Assembly: GCA_913030835.1 (NCBI GenBank)
Contig: CAJWDP010000033.1
Location: 1-35,595, forward strand
Direction of reading: 5' to 3'
DNA: 35,595 nucleotides
Source: an uncultured Flavobacteriales bacterium
GTDB taxonomy: Bacteria; Bacteroidota; Bacteroidia; Flavobacteriales_D; Parvicellaceae
The notes under the pieces are model-generated. The model searched no databases. It saw nothing but the letters and a program-made list of their open reading frames with translations, and had not been told where the DNA came from. Position 1 is the stretch's first letter. The number at the start of each line of letters is the position of its first letter. Shown here piece after piece: positions 2,467 to 21,479 of this stretch. The position numbers and the translations under genes were made by a program.

Positions 2467-3024
2467 ATGAATAAAGTTATTACACTCTTTACTACTATTT
2501 CATTTTCGTTATCGCTTTTCATTATTTCTTCTTGTAGCAAAACGGAACCGGATGAAGTTCGGGAAAGCTTTGAATACAATTTTGAGCAATTGGAAGGAAG
2601 AGGTATTGTTACAACGCTTAAGCAGCTTGGTTTTGATGATCAAGGTATTCCCGGGAATCCGGAGCCTCGCCCATTTTGTTTCAACACCGGCGGAAACTGT
2701 GTATGTGCAGTTAATATGGATTCTAAGGTGCAAGCTAATTTATCCGATTTAGATCATGCGATACATCATGAATTGCAACAAGAGTTTTTTAACATTCATC
2801 ATTATGGGGATATTTTTGATCTTTCCGAGAACAATATTGTTGAAAAGGTCCAGAGAAAACTAGAGCAAGGGAAGCTGTTTTTCAAAAAAGTTCATGTAGC
2901 AGGAACCGGATGGTACTTTGCCTCTAAACCACAGCATCTGCATAGAGAAGGTCAGGATTTTATCGATAGGGCAGTGCTTTCAATTCAAACTGCGGATGAG
3001 TATTTTTCTCATGACGGACACTAG
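2467..3024 (+). CDS. predicted lipoprotein of unknown function, first gene of a three-gene set
   Basis: I do not recognise this 185-residue protein. It begins with a hydrophobic signal segment ending in an FIISSC lipobox (Cys near residue 23), so it should be lipidated and exported. The mature part is hydrophilic, with a Cys-containing FCFNTGGNCVCAV stretch near residues 75-87 and several histidines (HAIHHELQQ, NIHHYGD). A metal or redox role would be a guess. A 217-bp non-coding gap precedes it, so it probably has its own promoter, although I found no convincing -7 element. Its end overlaps the next start by 14 bp, which suggests translational coupling with the two downstream lipoprotein genes. 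Confidence 0.7.
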   Translation: MNKVITLFTTISFSLSLFIISSCSKTEPDEVRESFEYNFEQLEGRGIVTTLKQLGFDDQGIPGNPEPRPFCFNTGGNCVCAVNMDSKVQANLSDLDHAIHHELQQEFFNIHHYGDIFDLSENNIVEKVQRKLEQGKLFFKKVHVAGTGWYFASKPQHLHREGQDFIDRAVLSIQTADEYFSHDGH

Positions 3025-4183
3025 TCCGAGAGTAGGGAGGAATTACATCCTATTTATTCTGATCATCCTGCTGAATTGGAAGTGCGATTCAGCTCCTGAT
3101 TTTACTTTATCTCCTCAATTCAATGGCACCCATTTTAGTTGTGAGATATGGAATGCCTTACCCGGTGAGTTTGGACAGGAAATTGGATGTTCAAAATTTA
3201 AAGGCGAAGACTGTATTTACTACCTAACGAGAGATGCTGAGATTGTACTTTACTTCTTGAATGGCGAAAAAGATTCGCTTCGCATTCCCCCTTCATTAAA
3301 GAAACGCTTAGGAATAAATCCCGAGGAAGTCATTGGATTTTGCTTGGCAAATGACTCCTATTGGTTCAATACTCCAATGACAGATACGGTATTCGAACTA
3401 TCGGCTGATCTGACTTCTATTGATCCACACTACACTGATCTGGGGAAACTCAATGCAGATGCGAAAATTAAAAGAGGATTGGGATTAATAAGTTGCAAGC
3501 GTCACCTGGTTCATGTAACAAAGAATCAGCTATTTCTTCCTATGATTCAGCATTACACGAAGCCGGGATCTAGTGATCAAATTCCAACGAATTACAGGAC
3601 AATTGGCATGTTCAGCCAATCATCAGGTACGCTTACTTTACGGAAAGATTTTGGTTCGCTTCCAGCAAATTACTACTCGGAAAATATGTATTTCAATACG
3701 TCTTCTTATTCTTTTAAAGGCGATACCGTACTGGTGAATTATCACTTTAATGACTCCATTGAATTGTACAACAAAGGCGTTTTAATCAATACGATTGAAA
3801 TGAAATCCAGGAAAAGTTCTGAGTTTATTGGACTGAAAGGTCCGTCACTGGATATTATGGCAGTTAAGGAGCATCAAATTCAGCACCCAAGGTATATCGA
3901 ATTAGTTTATGATCAGTTCAGAAATTTATATTATCGAACGTTTTTGGTTGAATCCAAAAATATGCAGGGTAAAATAATACCTCACGAAAAATGGAGATTA
4001 ATGGTTTATGACCATAAGTTTCGACCTATTGATGAATTTGAATTTAATTGCGCTGATTTTAGTCCGGCAACTTTATTTGTAATAAAGGAAGGTATATTGA
4101 TCAGGGATTTTAGGAATTTTGACCGCAACAACCCACAAAAAGCGGAATTTGAGTTACTTACATGGGAAGAAAAAGAGGTTTAG
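3011..4183 (+). CDS. secreted or lipoprotein beta-rich protein, DUF4221-like
   Basis: From the ATG at 3011 the product has about 390 residues. An earlier in-frame codon at 2918 would lie deep in the preceding gene and put charged sequence before the signal peptide, so it is not used. The N-terminus has a hydrophobic run (YILFILIILLNWKC) that may end in an atypical lipobox. The body alternates short beta-strand-like segments, with a late block DQFRNLYYRTFLVES that resembles the YR-x-YYR region of DUF4221 proteins of Bacteroidota; I recall that resemblance and could not search it. The function is unknown. It overlaps the upstream gene by 14 bp and the downstream gene by 22 bp, so the three form an operon. 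Confidence 0.65.
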   Translation: MTDTSPRVGRNYILFILIILLNWKCDSAPDFTLSPQFNGTHFSCEIWNALPGEFGQEIGCSKFKGEDCIYYLTRDAEIVLYFLNGEKDSLRIPPSLKKRLGINPEEVIGFCLANDSYWFNTPMTDTVFELSADLTSIDPHYTDLGKLNADAKIKRGLGLISCKRHLVHVTKNQLFLPMIQHYTKPGSSDQIPTNYRTIGMFSQSSGTLTLRKDFGSLPANYYSENMYFNTSSYSFKGDTVLVNYHFNDSIELYNKGVLINTIEMKSRKSSEFIGLKGPSLDIMAVKEHQIQHPRYIELVYDQFRNLYYRTFLVESKNMQGKIIPHEKWRLMVYDHKFRPIDEFEFNCADFSPATLFVIKEGILIRDFRNFDRNNPQKAEFELLTWEEKEV

Positions 4184-4641
4184 TATTTTTGTTGCCAATT
4201 GGTTTGTTTCTTAGCTGTATTCAAGGAGGTAGGGAGAATGAACCATCTATAACCGAAAAGTTCTCAGCATACTTGCACGAAGCATTTAATGAACAGATTC
4301 CCGAAGAAGAGCACTTTTATTTATTTACTACCGAAAAAGTTTGTGCATTGTGCGCAGGACCTCATTTCTCTTCATTCAATGAATTTCAGAATATATTGAA
4401 CAATCAAGACCTTTCCGTGATTACGGATTTTCCGTGTAAGAAAAGACTGAATTCAAGTTTAAGTGAGGTATGCAGGTACGATTCATTAGGCTTGTTCAAT
4501 CATTATTCATTCCCCAAAGCCTATCTTACATTTTACAGAACTAAATCCGGCGAAGTAAAGTCATACGCCTTTTACAAACAATCTACTAAGTTTATGGAAT
4601 TTGCTCAAAAACATGGTCGTTTGATGCCCTCTGATCAGTAA
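4162..4641 (+). CDS. small predicted lipoprotein with a CxxC motif, last gene of the set
   Basis: The 159-residue product has a short basic start, a hydrophobic segment and an LFLSC lipobox, so it is probably an outer- or inner-membrane lipoprotein. The mature protein contains VCALCAG, a CxxC motif placed just after a strand-like YLFTTE, as in many thioredoxin-fold proteins. The rest of a thioredoxin fold (cis-proline, long helices) is not convincing to me, so redox activity is only a possibility; metal binding is the alternative. It begins 22 bp inside the preceding gene. No clear terminator follows, although it converges with the THX gene 25 bp away. Confidence 0.65.
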   Translation: MGRKRGLVFLLPIGLFLSCIQGGRENEPSITEKFSAYLHEAFNEQIPEEEHFYLFTTEKVCALCAGPHFSSFNEFQNILNNQDLSVITDFPCKKRLNSSLSEVCRYDSLGLFNHYSFPKAYLTFYRTKSGEVKSYAFYKQSTKFMEFAQKHGRLMPSDQ

Positions 4642-8832: not shown

Positions 8833-9381
8833 ATGAAAAAGATCATGTATTTAATGTTTTCTACTTTTTTGCTGATAAGCTGTGGAGCGCTAGAGGAGAA
8901 AACAAAAAACAAAGTTGCAATTGAACAATTACTGGAAGAATTCATTGCGTGCAAAGAAAGTAGTGATGATGACCGAAGGATGTGCAAACATTATACAGCC
9001 GAGGCAATTTGCAAATACAATGGTATTGAAGATTTTGAAAACAGTGATGGTACATATTTGGAGTATCACGATTTGTTCATTGCTATTACGGATAGTCCAA
9101 ATTGGAAATTTTTGGGAGAGGCCAGTGAACAAAGTGTACTTGATGATGCACAGGATCTTGCAAATAGAGGGTTTCCGGTGGTGTGCATAGATGCCCAGGA
9201 CAAGCACAAATTTGCAGTGTTGATCATCGAAGGTGAAGCTCAGAGTTCCAAGAAGTGGGGTCTCACGTGCCCGAATTCCGCAGCATTTTTTCCATCTAAG
9301 CGTCCTGAGCCGTATATCAACAAAACGTTGAATTACGCATTCAAGAAACCAAAAGGATTGGAGATATTTGTTCGGAAGTAA
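8833..9381 (+). CDS. lipoprotein, possibly with a papain-like/NlpC-type fold
   Basis: The 182-residue protein has a clear lipobox (LLISC, Cys17). The mature domain has the order seen in NlpC/CHAP-type papain-fold enzymes: a cysteine at the start of a helix followed by G-I-x-D-F (Cys51 to about 68), then NWKFLG, AQDLANRGFPVVC (about 105-118), a histidine (His125) at the start of the strand KFAVLIIEG, then KWGLTC and a C-terminal YINKTLNYAF with a basic end. In that reading Cys51 and His125 would be catalytic, and the protein could be a cell-wall or toxin-type amidase. This is inference from pattern order only; it could equally be an inactive relative. It stands alone, convergent with the next gene. 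Confidence 0.55.
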   Translation: MKKIMYLMFSTFLLISCGALEEKTKNKVAIEQLLEEFIACKESSDDDRRMCKHYTAEAICKYNGIEDFENSDGTYLEYHDLFIAITDSPNWKFLGEASEQSVLDDAQDLANRGFPVVCIDAQDKHKFAVLIIEGEAQSSKKWGLTCPNSAAFFPSKRPEPYINKTLNYAFKKPKGLEIFVRK

Positions 9382-9418: not shown

Positions 9419-10261
9419 TTACTCGCCGTACTTTTTAAGTAGACTCTGCAACTTTTTCCTCGTTTTGTGATCACGTACAAGTTCGATATCTATACTGTTT
9501 AGAATTTGAACGATCCCTTTATTGTCACTGGGCTCAGATTGCTCTAGCTTCTCAATTTTTTCGAGCTTCAATAGAATCGAATTTTCATTTGTCTTCAATT
9601 TTCGTCTTCTAGCTTCATAAATCTTGTTGAAACGATCATTAAATACATCCTTATATCCGTATTGTAAGATAACGTCCATGGTTAATCGATTTGCTTCCTC
9701 CCATTTCTCTTTGGCCACCAGTTGATCAAATTGTTTTGTATAGCTAATGCTATCCGATAAAGTCCAATCGACAGTTGTAAAATTGAAAATACGGCTATCT
9801 TGAGGGGAATCAGAAATAGACGATGTGTCTGCAATTTCAACGGGTTGTTTCATTTTTGCTAATAAGGCCATCCACTCGATTTTTAAGTCTGGTTCCTTAT
9901 TCAGAATTTGTCTGGTCCGGGTCGCTATATAGCGGCTTGATGATTGCCCGGAAAGAGCGTAGTGGACAAGGGCCGCTCTGCTTGTAGAATGCAAATAAGC
10001 GCTATCTCCTTTGATGATGTGCTGGATTGCTCTGTCCGAAGCCTTGTTAAATAAAACTATGCTATCCAATGAAAATAACTTATTTGCTAATCTTAGGGTA
10101 TCGGGGGTATCTCGTTCCAATGCGATTGAATAATAATACCTTGCTTGCTCAAATTCTCCTTTCGATTCAAATTTGGTTGCCTGATGGAGAATGTGTTTTA
10201 TTTCTTGTCCATAGGAACAGCACACAGAAATAATGCTTGTTATTACGATTAATTTACGCAA
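9419..10261 (-). CDS. secreted TPR-like protein of unknown function
   Basis: The 280-residue product has a signal peptide ending near CCSYGQ (around residue 19), so it is probably in the periplasm or on the surface. Residues about 24-55 look like a tetratricopeptide repeat (KFESKGEFEQARYYYSIALE), and a second weaker one covers EKWEEANRLTMDVILQYG near residue 190. The C-terminal third is charged and helical. No catalytic motif is visible. Its start lies 13 bp inside the end of recQ, so it is read from the recQ transcript. Why a secreted TPR protein should be coupled to a helicase is unclear; it may be chance. Confidence 0.65.
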   Translation of the reverse strand: MRKLIVITSIISVCCSYGQEIKHILHQATKFESKGEFEQARYYYSIALERDTPDTLRLANKLFSLDSIVLFNKASDRAIQHIIKGDSAYLHSTSRAALVHYALSGQSSSRYIATRTRQILNKEPDLKIEWMALLAKMKQPVEIADTSSISDSPQDSRIFNFTTVDWTLSDSISYTKQFDQLVAKEKWEEANRLTMDVILQYGYKDVFNDRFNKIYEARRRKLKTNENSILLKLEKIEKLEQSEPSDNKGIVQILNSIDIELVRDHKTRKKLQSLLKKYGE

Positions 10262-13420: not shown

Positions 13421-14737
13421 TTGAAAATCTTTTCGGTAATTTTATTGTTCACTACATCCGTGCTCTGTGCACAAAACAAATTTATTGTCAAGGGTACTAT
13501 AGAAGATGAAAACGGGGAAACCATAAAAACCGGAGTTCGTATTTCCCAGGCCAGTAAGCCATCCAATACTGTTCTTTCAAAACGAAATGGAACGTACATT
13601 TTTCGTTACAACTACACTGGAAACAATGAAGATGGGTTGATCTTCCATTCCGCCTGGTTTCAGGATAAGACAGTCAGGATTACCAAAAAATTGATAAAAC
13701 GGGTGGTTAAAGACACACTTTACTTAAATGTTCGTCTTTCATATGTCATGTTGGAAGGACCTGTTATTGAACGGGATCAGGCACCTGAGGTGGTATTTGG
13801 TCACCCGCACAAAAGTGTTCAGGATTTTGAGTTGGATTCGGGCAGATTGGTCTTACTGCTGTTTGAAAAAAGTTTAAAACGAGGGGCTGAGGTAATTTTG
13901 GCAAAAGGAGACAGCGTAATTTCCAGGTGCAACGTGCCTGGCCAAGCGGAACGGTTGTTTAAAGATTATTTGGGTAGAATCTACGTCATTTGTGAGAAAG
14001 AAGTATTTCTGTGCACTTTCAAAGACAATTTGGGGACAATAAGTGAAGTGAATGCTGAGGAATTTTACAAACAAACATGGCGGGTTATTGATACGCTAGC
14101 AGGAAAGTATTATTTCTCAAATAAAATAGAGATTTATCCGGCGTATGAATATTTTTCCCAAAAACGAAAAGATACTGTCTCAAAACGACTTCATTATGTA
14201 GAAAATGAGCTGATCATGGATTTGTATAGAGCGGAATACAAGTACGTTGATGGTCAGGAGAAATTGTGGGCAGTTCGCAAGGAAATGGCTACGGGTATAG
14301 ATAAAGAAATTTGGATAGGCGCAAAATACTTTACGTGCAGTGTGTATTACAAGGTTCCCTATGCGCCATTATTTGTTAAAGAAGATACCGTGCTGGTTTT
14401 CGATCATTTTAAAGACTATTTATATAAATATGATCGGGAGGATCAAAAAGTTGATTCGGTAGCGATCTACTACCACAAATTAACGAAACCGGTTAAATGG
14501 AAGCAACCACTGGTTGCTGACGAAACGACAAGCCGGATATACGGTCTGTTTATGAGGGCAGGACATTTCCACATAAAAGAAATTTATACAAACACAGGGT
14601 TGACATCAAGAGCCTTTAAAGTATATTACAAATTTGTAGAAAAACTGAAGATAGATAAAGGCTACGCATACTACATTTATCGTCCATATGAATCGGCGCA
14701 GGAGCGTTATATTTACAGAGAGAAGATAGACCTTTAA
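13421..14737 (+). CDS. secreted protein with N-terminal carboxypeptidase-regulatory-like domain
   Basis: The 438-residue product begins at TTG (13421), which is supported because a signal peptide (MKIFSVILLFTTSVLCAQ) starts exactly there and no ATG is nearby. The mature N-terminus KFIVKGTIEDENGE, followed by a strand-rich block to about residue 100, looks like the carboxypeptidase-regulatory-like or SusC/D-plug fold often found in Bacteroidota envelope proteins. The remaining ~330 residues are strand-rich with many Tyr, Trp and charged residues, and I do not recognise them; a beta-propeller is possible. No sorting domain for T9SS is visible at the end. It lies 67 bp after ilvE and 15 bp before a GNAT gene. 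Confidence 0.7.
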   Translation: MKIFSVILLFTTSVLCAQNKFIVKGTIEDENGETIKTGVRISQASKPSNTVLSKRNGTYIFRYNYTGNNEDGLIFHSAWFQDKTVRITKKLIKRVVKDTLYLNVRLSYVMLEGPVIERDQAPEVVFGHPHKSVQDFELDSGRLVLLLFEKSLKRGAEVILAKGDSVISRCNVPGQAERLFKDYLGRIYVICEKEVFLCTFKDNLGTISEVNAEEFYKQTWRVIDTLAGKYYFSNKIEIYPAYEYFSQKRKDTVSKRLHYVENELIMDLYRAEYKYVDGQEKLWAVRKEMATGIDKEIWIGAKYFTCSVYYKVPYAPLFVKEDTVLVFDHFKDYLYKYDREDQKVDSVAIYYHKLTKPVKWKQPLVADETTSRIYGLFMRAGHFHIKEIYTNTGLTSRAFKVYYKFVEKLKIDKGYAYYIYRPYESAQERYIYREKIDL

Positions 14738-19808: not shown

Positions 19809-21479
19809 TCAACGCAGAATCTTTCTTACAAATGCAACGGTGAAGTACGACATGAGAAATAAACCAACAAATCCTTCAATGCTTGATACGGCTCGAATAA
19901 TTCCCCAGGGAGAATAGTCGCCATATCCGATGGTTAAAAAGGTGATTGCGGAATGGTAAAAAGAAACTGCCAAATTTGACAACTCTTCCGGAGGACTAAA
20001 GCCGGGTTTTAAATCTCCAAAGCCTAAACTGATCATAAAGAAATAGGTAAGGCTAAACAAGACGTATGTGCACAGCATGCTGATGAGCACTCTTAACGGG
20101 TCAGTAGCATAAAGACCCATCCAATCAAAAATCAACTTCTTAAAAAAGCTGAGCGGATAAACCCAAAGCTTATTCATTTTGTGCTTACTGATCTTATCAC
20201 TGTTATAGGCCTTCAGCTCGTATCTTTTGAAGGCAACATATGCTTTGTCTTCGTCATTGTATTTTCCGGAAGCATTGAAGTCTTCTTTGAGCAACCGAAA
20301 TTGATTGGTTTTGTCATGAAAAGACGAATCCTGACTTTCGATCAATGATTTGACATTATTTTCTTTCCAATCAAGGAAGATCTTTCCAAGGTTTCTGACA
20401 CCTGTTAGGATCAGCTGATTCAGCTTTAATTCTGTTTTGCCTTTTTTCAGGTCGACAATATCTCGGATTATCGTATCGGATAGATCAATGGTATCACATT
20501 GTTCAACCCGCAGATCAACGTAGGTTTTAAGCTGGCAAGATTTAAAATTGATGATTCTTGCTTTTGTTCTGAGCATTGAGATGCTTCCATCCCCAAACTC
20601 TGCTCCTTCGAAAGAAACTTCTTCATCACCGAAGTCGGCCATGTCAAAAGAAATATTTCCGGAACCAAAAATTGCTTTCTTGAAAAAGGTGCGTCCTTTT
20701 TTGTGCTCTATTTCTTCGAATGAGACGATTGCATTACCGAAAACTGTCCTTCTGAAGTCCAGCTTGCCGGAGCCAAATTCGACTTTTCTAAAGTCCACAT
20801 ATTTTCCTCCGAATTCTGATTTGTCGAAAGACACGTCGCCTTTTCCAAACTTCGCAAAATGGAAGTCAACGTTTCCTGATCCAAAATTGAAATTCTTGAA
20901 GTTAACTTTTCCGTCCTTAAAATCAGCATTGATAAAAGAGGTGTTTCCGTTGTAATTCGCGCAATTTTCAAATGTGACATTGCCGTTTCCAAAATCGGTA
21001 AACTGAAAATTAATGCTTCCCTCACCAAAATCCACGTTGGAGAAATCCACATCCGTTTCAGCGAATGAGCTTTTGTAAAAACTAACATTACCACTTCCGA
21101 AAGATGAGTTAACAAAATCGCCGCCTCCATTGAATTCCGCATAAGAAAAGTCTGTGGTGTCATCTGCTTCAAAGAATGTTCGGATGGCGATGAAGTTGTT
21201 GAGTGTCAGCTTCTCATCCCTGCTTAGCTCGTGTTTTTCTCGAAAATCGGACAACGAAAAATTCTTCACATAGCAATTGGAAATGTCTATTTCTTCTTTA
21301 GCTATGATCTTTTTGTAAATCTCATCCGATTCCAACACACCATACCGTTCCTTTTTAACAACGTTTCTATTTCCATCTCTAAAGATAATTACTGCAGTTC
21401 GAGAGAGTGAAAACAGTCCGTTCTCGAAAGGGTCGTCGGTAATCTTTATTGAGTAATATTGATGCTGTTTTTCCTTCAC
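19809..21479 (-). CDS. 12-residue-repeat (beta-solenoid-like) protein fused to a two-TM potassium-channel pore
   Basis: This 556-residue protein has three parts. Residues 1-115 are a soluble N-terminal region. Residues about 116-306 hold about sixteen near-perfect 12-residue repeats, F-G-x-G-x-V-x-F-x-x-x-x, with the leading aromatic at 116, 127, 139, 151, 163, 176, 187, 199, 211, 223, 235, 247, 271, 283 and 295. Residues 460-556 form an ion-channel domain: a first span (about 461-487), a pore helix and the selectivity filter TIGYGD (516-521), then a second span (about 531-553). The linker has LLKEDFNASGKYNDEDKAYVAFKRY, seen in pentapeptide-repeat channels. The filter predicts K+ selectivity and probably a tetramer. 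The repeat is not the usual A-D/N-L-x-x pentapeptide. The start is GTG, overlapping the preceding small gene as GTGA; no ATG fits. What opens the channel is unknown. Confidence 0.85.
   Translation of the reverse strand: MKEKQHQYYSIKITDDPFENGLFSLSRTAVIIFRDGNRNVVKKERYGVLESDEIYKKIIAKEEIDISNCYVKNFSLSDFREKHELSRDEKLTLNNFIAIRTFFEADDTTDFSYAEFNGGGDFVNSSFGSGNVSFYKSSFAETDVDFSNVDFGEGSINFQFTDFGNGNVTFENCANYNGNTSFINADFKDGKVNFKNFNFGSGNVDFHFAKFGKGDVSFDKSEFGGKYVDFRKVEFGSGKLDFRRTVFGNAIVSFEEIEHKKGRTFFKKAIFGSGNISFDMADFGDEEVSFEGAEFGDGSISMLRTKARIINFKSCQLKTYVDLRVEQCDTIDLSDTIIRDIVDLKKGKTELKLNQLILTGVRNLGKIFLDWKENNVKSLIESQDSSFHDKTNQFRLLKEDFNASGKYNDEDKAYVAFKRYELKAYNSDKISKHKMNKLWVYPLSFFKKLIFDWMGLYATDPLRVLISMLCTYVLFSLTYFFMISLGFGDLKPGFSPPEELSNLAVSFYHSAITFLTIGYGDYSPWGIIRAVSSIEGFVGLFLMSYFTVAFVRKILR
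20562..21134 (-). repeat. coding region of ~36-bp diverged tandem repeats (12-residue FGxGxVxF units)
   Basis: The DNA encodes about sixteen units of 36 bp, with one unit of 39 bp and two of 33 bp, so the frame is kept. The units have diverged strongly at the nucleotide level but keep aromatic, glycine and beta-strand positions. This shows selection on the protein repeat rather than a recent expansion. Confidence 0.85.

Follow-up and report, generated by a model that had tools for sequence, protein, structure and literature searches.

The 35,595-nucleotide stretch of DNA analysed here (the window) encodes a conserved, uncharacterised variant of the pentapeptide-solenoid K+ channel, a protein in which a long array of widened pentapeptide-type repeats precedes a two-transmembrane pore. 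On balance, we lean towards a reading in which the stretched-pentapeptide solenoid lies in the cytosol, acts as the sensor of this two-transmembrane K+ channel and gates its pore via a connecting linker. The gene (positions 19809-21479, on the minus strand, as are all of the protein's features given below) codes for 556 residues and ends in a stop codon at 19809-19811; its GTG start codon lies immediately 3' of an in-frame TGA, and both congeners found (G001 and G002) have a GTG start at the same point. Among the papers listed by full-text searches of the literature, no title or abstract concerned pentapeptide-repeat K+ channels, and PMC11237479 and PMC9009326 hold the relevant terms in unrelated places.

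The protein begins with a domain of mixed beta and helical structure (residues 1-104; 21168-21479), modelled by AlphaFold2 with fair to high confidence, the first residues excepted, and matching no family in the Pfam scan. It is followed by the solenoid, whose Phe repeats are each 12 residues long (5+7) and occupy residues 105-306 (20562-21167), by a set of irregular final solenoid turns in the model (residues 307-370; 20370-20561) and by a predicted helical linker, delimited from the model and the alignment (residues 371-460; 20100-20369). The Pfam scan and the model place the first transmembrane helix at residues 461-485 (20025-20099), the translation places the selectivity filter at residues 516-521 (19917-19934), and the model and the alignment place the second transmembrane helix at residues 527-555 (19815-19901). 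This domain order is common to the 18 sequences first aligned (the query and 17 relatives) and to the 21 aligned later, one of which (L011) is truncated by a contig edge and lacks its N-terminus.

The 12-residue periodicity, originally predicted as about sixteen repeats keeping their register, is confirmed. Residues 115-306 form 16 rows of 12, with Phe or Tyr at position 1 in 13 rows, Gly at position 2 in 11 and at position 4 in 12, Val, Ile or Leu at position 6 in 13, and Phe at position 8 in 15. Over residues 106-345, the column information at period 12 reaches a z of 13.2 against 500 shuffles, compared with -0.8 at period 5, and there is no signal at period 24 in excess of that at period 12 (p 0.68). 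The motif [FY][GKNA]xGx[VILT]xF occurs 8 times, against an average of 0.04 and a maximum of 2 in 2000 shuffles of the protein.

Within this period a second regularity is visible, as the Phe-to-Phe spacing in residues 105-306 alternates between 7 (12 times) and 5 (11 times). The 12-mer can accordingly be split into V-S-F-x-x, followed by A-D-F-G-x and two further residues, often G-N. Seven of the 16 first (V-x-F) units match the extended five-position pentapeptide consensus, as given in PMC8145042, at all five positions, where shuffles average 0.1 and never exceed 2; 11 of the 16 second units match it at the first three positions. The Pfam scan assigns Pentapeptide_3 (PF13576) to the protein at 3.5e-9, with 37.2 bits against a curated cut-off of 27, but the same profile is found at E 0.01 in only 9 of the 21 aligned sequences. 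When the six frames of the protein's own genome were searched with Pentapeptide_3 at E 1e-3, another protein was listed and not the channel protein. The same genome also encodes a separate pentapeptide protein of 427 aa (L028, 1054-2337), with canonical five-residue repeats and hydrophobic N-terminal segments.

We class the channel protein as a variant of the pentapeptide family, because it matches the profile above the curated cut-off but lacks contiguous five-residue repeats, having a period of 12 and a 5/7 alternation instead. Each 12-mer reads as a near-canonical pentapeptide followed by a pentapeptide with two extra residues, and the repeat as a whole reads as a widened pentapeptide repeat, with no new repeat class needed; this reading draws on the 5/7 spacing, the consensus fit, the PF13576 match and a Streptomyces protein with the same spacing. 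The original prediction had set the repeats apart from those of pentapeptide proteins, a distinction that gives way to the 5+7 units, the Pentapeptide_3 score and the superposition on solved pentapeptide proteins described below. In part, then, the repeats already belong to a described family, whose name, PF13576, they carry; and while their predicted helix is of the pentapeptide type, it is a stretched helix and not the ordinary one.

The AlphaFold2 model, built from the 18 aligned sequences, has a mean pLDDT of 88.1 and of 90-95 in the solenoid blocks, where it confidently predicts a right-handed beta-helix; a second, partial model covers residues 223-556. In VIA, tailspikes and other wide beta-helices score highest against the whole model (Sf6, Z about 21, rmsd 3.8 over 304 residues), and the list closes with HetL in row 50 (Z 16.4, 226 residues, rmsd 3.1). 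The partial model matches AlbG (Z 11.6, rmsd 2.5 over 129 residues) along a path that runs from model residues 1-170 against AlbG 10-174, and its final 97 residues match Kir/NaK-type pores. The solenoid thus superposes on AlbG, QnrB1, MfpA and HetL, and also on the wider helices. The wide helices concerned have turns of 20 or more residues. Since the predicted helix follows the paths of pentapeptide proteins and wide helices, which would be unexpected for a 12-residue turn, we infer a turn of about 24 residues, equal to two 12-mers; pentapeptide proteins have four five-residue repeats per turn, according to PMC8145042. Given the VIA ranking, the cross-section may be nearer to that of the tailspike-like wide helices. 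A true 12-residue turn, in a two-sided helix like that of the beetle antifreeze protein, had been raised by the original prediction and would agree with the sequence period of 12 and the missing extra signal at 24. We consider it highly improbable, as the superpositions extend over 129-304 residues on helices with turns of at least 20 residues, AlbG and HetL among those matched, and the half-units match the pentapeptide consensus. A knotted solenoid was also considered; the triangular knotted fold of PMC13123833 is unlike the Phe-rich quadrilateral helices.

The linker and the two-span K+-channel pore with TIGYGD are present as originally predicted. Ion_trans_2 (PF07885) is detected in the query at 2.7e-10 and in all 21 aligned sequences, whose filters read TIGYGD (9), TIGYGE (8) or TVGYGD (4). 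Two helices, a P-loop and a TxGYG filter, the hallmarks of two-transmembrane K+ channels, are all found, and the Pfam scan of the channel protein shows neither a Kir nor an RCK domain. Nineteen of the 21 sequences share an identical C-terminal end, YFTVAFVRKILR, from residue 545 on. The net charge is +3 before the first transmembrane helix and -2 in the pore loop, and the C-terminus is basic, a pattern consistent with both ends lying inside the cell. The linker contains the invariant runs G-x-Y-x-D-E-D, F-K-R and F-D..G..A-T.P.R-V; taken as a whole, its conservation is no higher than that of the rest of the protein, and identity to a congener is 79% in the linker, 81% in the solenoid and 87% in the pore.

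Charged residues recur in the solenoid at 24-residue steps, each following closely on the second Phe (K195, D/E219-K/R220, R243-R244 and K/R267-K/R268). K195 does not vary across the 21 aligned sequences, and basic residues predominate at positions 220, 243, 244, 267 and 268. We suggest this stretch (residues 195-268; 20676-20897) as a candidate ligand strip. When turns of 24 residues are assumed, the two faces of the solenoid do not differ significantly in charge (p 0.78); the idea of a single basic face was dropped for this reason, the strip stays a suggestion, and our claims are limited to the individual conserved positions. Around the pore helix and filter, positions 492 (20004-20006) and 522 (19914-19916) are both Cys in 13 of the 21 sequences and neither is Cys in the other 8, the channel protein of the window included; a single Cys is never seen. 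The two cysteines probably form a disulphide, bracketing the P-loop as in Kir channels, and all 13 sequences with the pair form one group on the tree, which points to one event. A link between the pair and the adjacent thioredoxin was considered and dropped, as the thioredoxin is retained in members that lack the pair, and two loci with the pair (L008 and L009) have no detected thioredoxin.

The channel gene is present in four families of one order in the sampled genomes. A long match with E below 1e-130 is found in 23 of 60 genomes, the window's own included, and matches at E 1e-20 or better occur in 31 of 299 sampled genomes of the order. The window's family accounts for 23 of these, and three further families for 5, 2 and 1. 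Internal stops are present in three of the 31 copies (G008, at L013; G576, at L059; and G030, at L060, a short remnant), and some lineages may be able to do without the gene. Among 395 sampled genomes across the phylum, the full match is confined to the window's own genome, with a match to the channel part in four others; the solenoid search there gives 1 of 395, and the linker search gives 1 of 198, the window's own genome alone. No relatives in viral contigs were confirmed. Two further channels of the phylum (L024, 307-1857, and L025, 607-1866) have long N-terminal regions without Pfam matches before an Ion_trans_2 pore. Compared with a congener, pN is 0.124 per site and pS 0.855, which is saturated, and by this sequence comparison the gene is under purifying selection.

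For the flanks of 20 relatives' loci (L003-L022), several of which reach contig edges, the comparison was limited to the window's proteins. In this comparison, citrate synthase is next downstream of the channel gene in 14 loci, a thioredoxin-like gene precedes it in 12, one match being weak, and 11 have an S9 peptidase upstream. In five loci (L018-L022) a second thioredoxin-like gene lies between thioredoxin and channel; in L020-L022 it shares 33-34% identity with that of the window over 70-76 residues, and in L018 and L019 the intervening ORF contains CGWC and has no match to the window's proteins. The gene order is absent from four loci of another family (L056-L059), where the neighbour in three is presumably a chorismate synthase. 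With family f8 as the root, a FastTree phylogeny of the 21 sequences places the genus of the window beside f11 (support 0.95) and, less firmly, f10 (0.70). The rest of its own family falls elsewhere on the tree, despite the gene neighbours that it has in common with the genus. Simple vertical descent is therefore not clearly borne out by this tree; the shared neighbours argue for descent, and the tree favours either a more mixed history or imperfectly drawn family limits.

HalA is the membrane effector of the Hailong anti-phage system, whose partner gene halB encodes a nucleotidyltransferase and in which oligodeoxyadenylate serves as the ligand. It is also the closest solved chain to the channel protein: in Foldseek it is the best match of the whole model (E 1.8e-3) and, for the partial model, the sole chain of 350,542 under 0.001 (E 3.1e-5, probability 1.00, 353 columns on a 333-residue chain). 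VIA aligns 275 residues to HalA from one chain end to the other, so that both programs recover the overall architecture of the HalA chain, at an rmsd of 13.0 Å in VIA; the overall rmsd of the HalA match is poor (11-13 Å), and we conclude that the parts match while their arrangement differs or is uncertain. A chain combining a solenoid with a two-transmembrane pore thus seems to have been solved already, as HalA (PDB 9nyi, by its title determined with a DNA ligand). No sequence similarity to HalA appeared among the matches listed in the sequence searches. The Pfam scan of the 27 other ORFs of the window yields no nucleotidyltransferase, six of them having no match at 1e-5, and no HalB-type neighbour was found in the window, unlike in Hailong. 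PADLOC also gives no match, with a library of 2023 that perhaps lacks Hailong. A Hailong locus was rejected on the missing nucleotidyltransferase and the empty PADLOC result, and we do not claim membership of that system; a HalA-like way of working is possible. The six ORFs that match no Pfam family at E 1e-5 measure 159-438 aa, five being on the plus strand (13421-14737, 1017-2249, 2467-3024, 4162-4641 and 8833-9381) and one on the minus strand (9419-10261).

In the mechanism that we prefer, the channel would be a K+-selective, two-transmembrane tetramer. The N-terminal two thirds of each chain would lie in the cytosol as a solenoid with about 24 residues per turn, its final turns connected to the first pore helix by the predicted helical linker. 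A ligand or partner protein would bind the side of the solenoid, perhaps at the charged positions 195-268, and binding would shift the linker and thereby open or close the inner gate, as in HalA. The repeat, the pore signature, the conservation and the neighbourhood are matters of sequence and the fold is a prediction; the turn size, the tetramer, the topology, K+ conduction, gating by the solenoid and the binding strip go one step further than these, and a sensor role for the solenoid is plausible. Repeat solenoids are often used as docking surfaces, and the domain could instead be merely a scaffold, serving tetramer assembly or docking, with the pore open or gated otherwise by voltage, pH or lipid. 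This we regard as rather unlikely: the near-invariant inner end of the second transmembrane helix could itself contain a gate and the linker is on average not more conserved than the solenoid, but the invariant runs within the linker speak against a passive role, as does the DNA ligand named in the title of 9nyi, the structurally closest chain.

Two further readings start from HalA, which heads the Foldseek results for both models, and from the conserved basic residues midway along the solenoid. The protein could be a HalA-like effector, in which a nucleic-acid or nucleotide signal bound to the solenoid keeps the pore closed until that signal is lost, for example to phage enzymes, and the channel opens. 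We hold this to be decidedly improbable, because the scanned ORFs include no nucleotidyltransferase, the neighbours are housekeeping-like, with citrate synthase so often adjoining, and PADLOC is silent, with the reservation on its library made above. Quite unlikely, too, is a stand-alone K+ channel that resembles the Hailong effector and serves normal physiology instead of defence, in which an anionic intracellular signal (an oligonucleotide, a nucleotide or a lipid) would act on the basic positions of the solenoid; if true, it would point to an ancestral use of such channels. Being chromosomal and mostly intact, the family is a tractable subject for finding what solenoid-linked channels sense outside anti-phage defence.

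Among known systems, HalA appears from the alignments to share the layout of the channel protein, running from solenoid through linker to two-span pore, in a resolved chain of 333 residues compared with 556. The two-transmembrane K+ channels (Kir, KirBac, KcsA, NaK and MthK) have the pore domain and TIGYGD in common with the channel protein; its added domain is the solenoid, placed before the pore, and unlike Kir channels it has no Cys pair around the P-loop. Pentapeptide-type repeats fused to a K+ pore are found also in another genome of the phylum (L027), for which no plasmid relatives were found at E 1e-8. With AlbG, QnrB1, MfpA and HetL (PF00805, PF13576), the channel protein shares the profile match, a Phe/Val/Ala core and, in the model, a right-handed beta-helix, whereas Phe residues in pentapeptide proteins are spaced 5/5 with 20 residues per turn and those of the channel protein 5/7 with probably about 24. 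The same 12-mer and 5/7 spacing recur in a Streptomyces plasmid protein (WP_331730470.1, L029), annotated as a pentapeptide repeat protein (PF13576, 1e-15), which has no channel match in Pfam and carries N-terminal hydrophobic segments instead; 79 plasmid records were matched, 64 of them from Streptomyces, and this is the one such protein read for spacing. A haloarchaeal plasmid protein of 779 aa (WP_302083717.1, L030) has, like the channel protein, a PF13576 solenoid followed by an Ion_trans_2 pore, and aligns with query residues 111-555 at 23% identity (E 2e-4); its Phe spacing is 5/6. The resulting series of 5/5, 5/6 and 5/7 suggests a simple rule for the widening of the pentapeptide helix.
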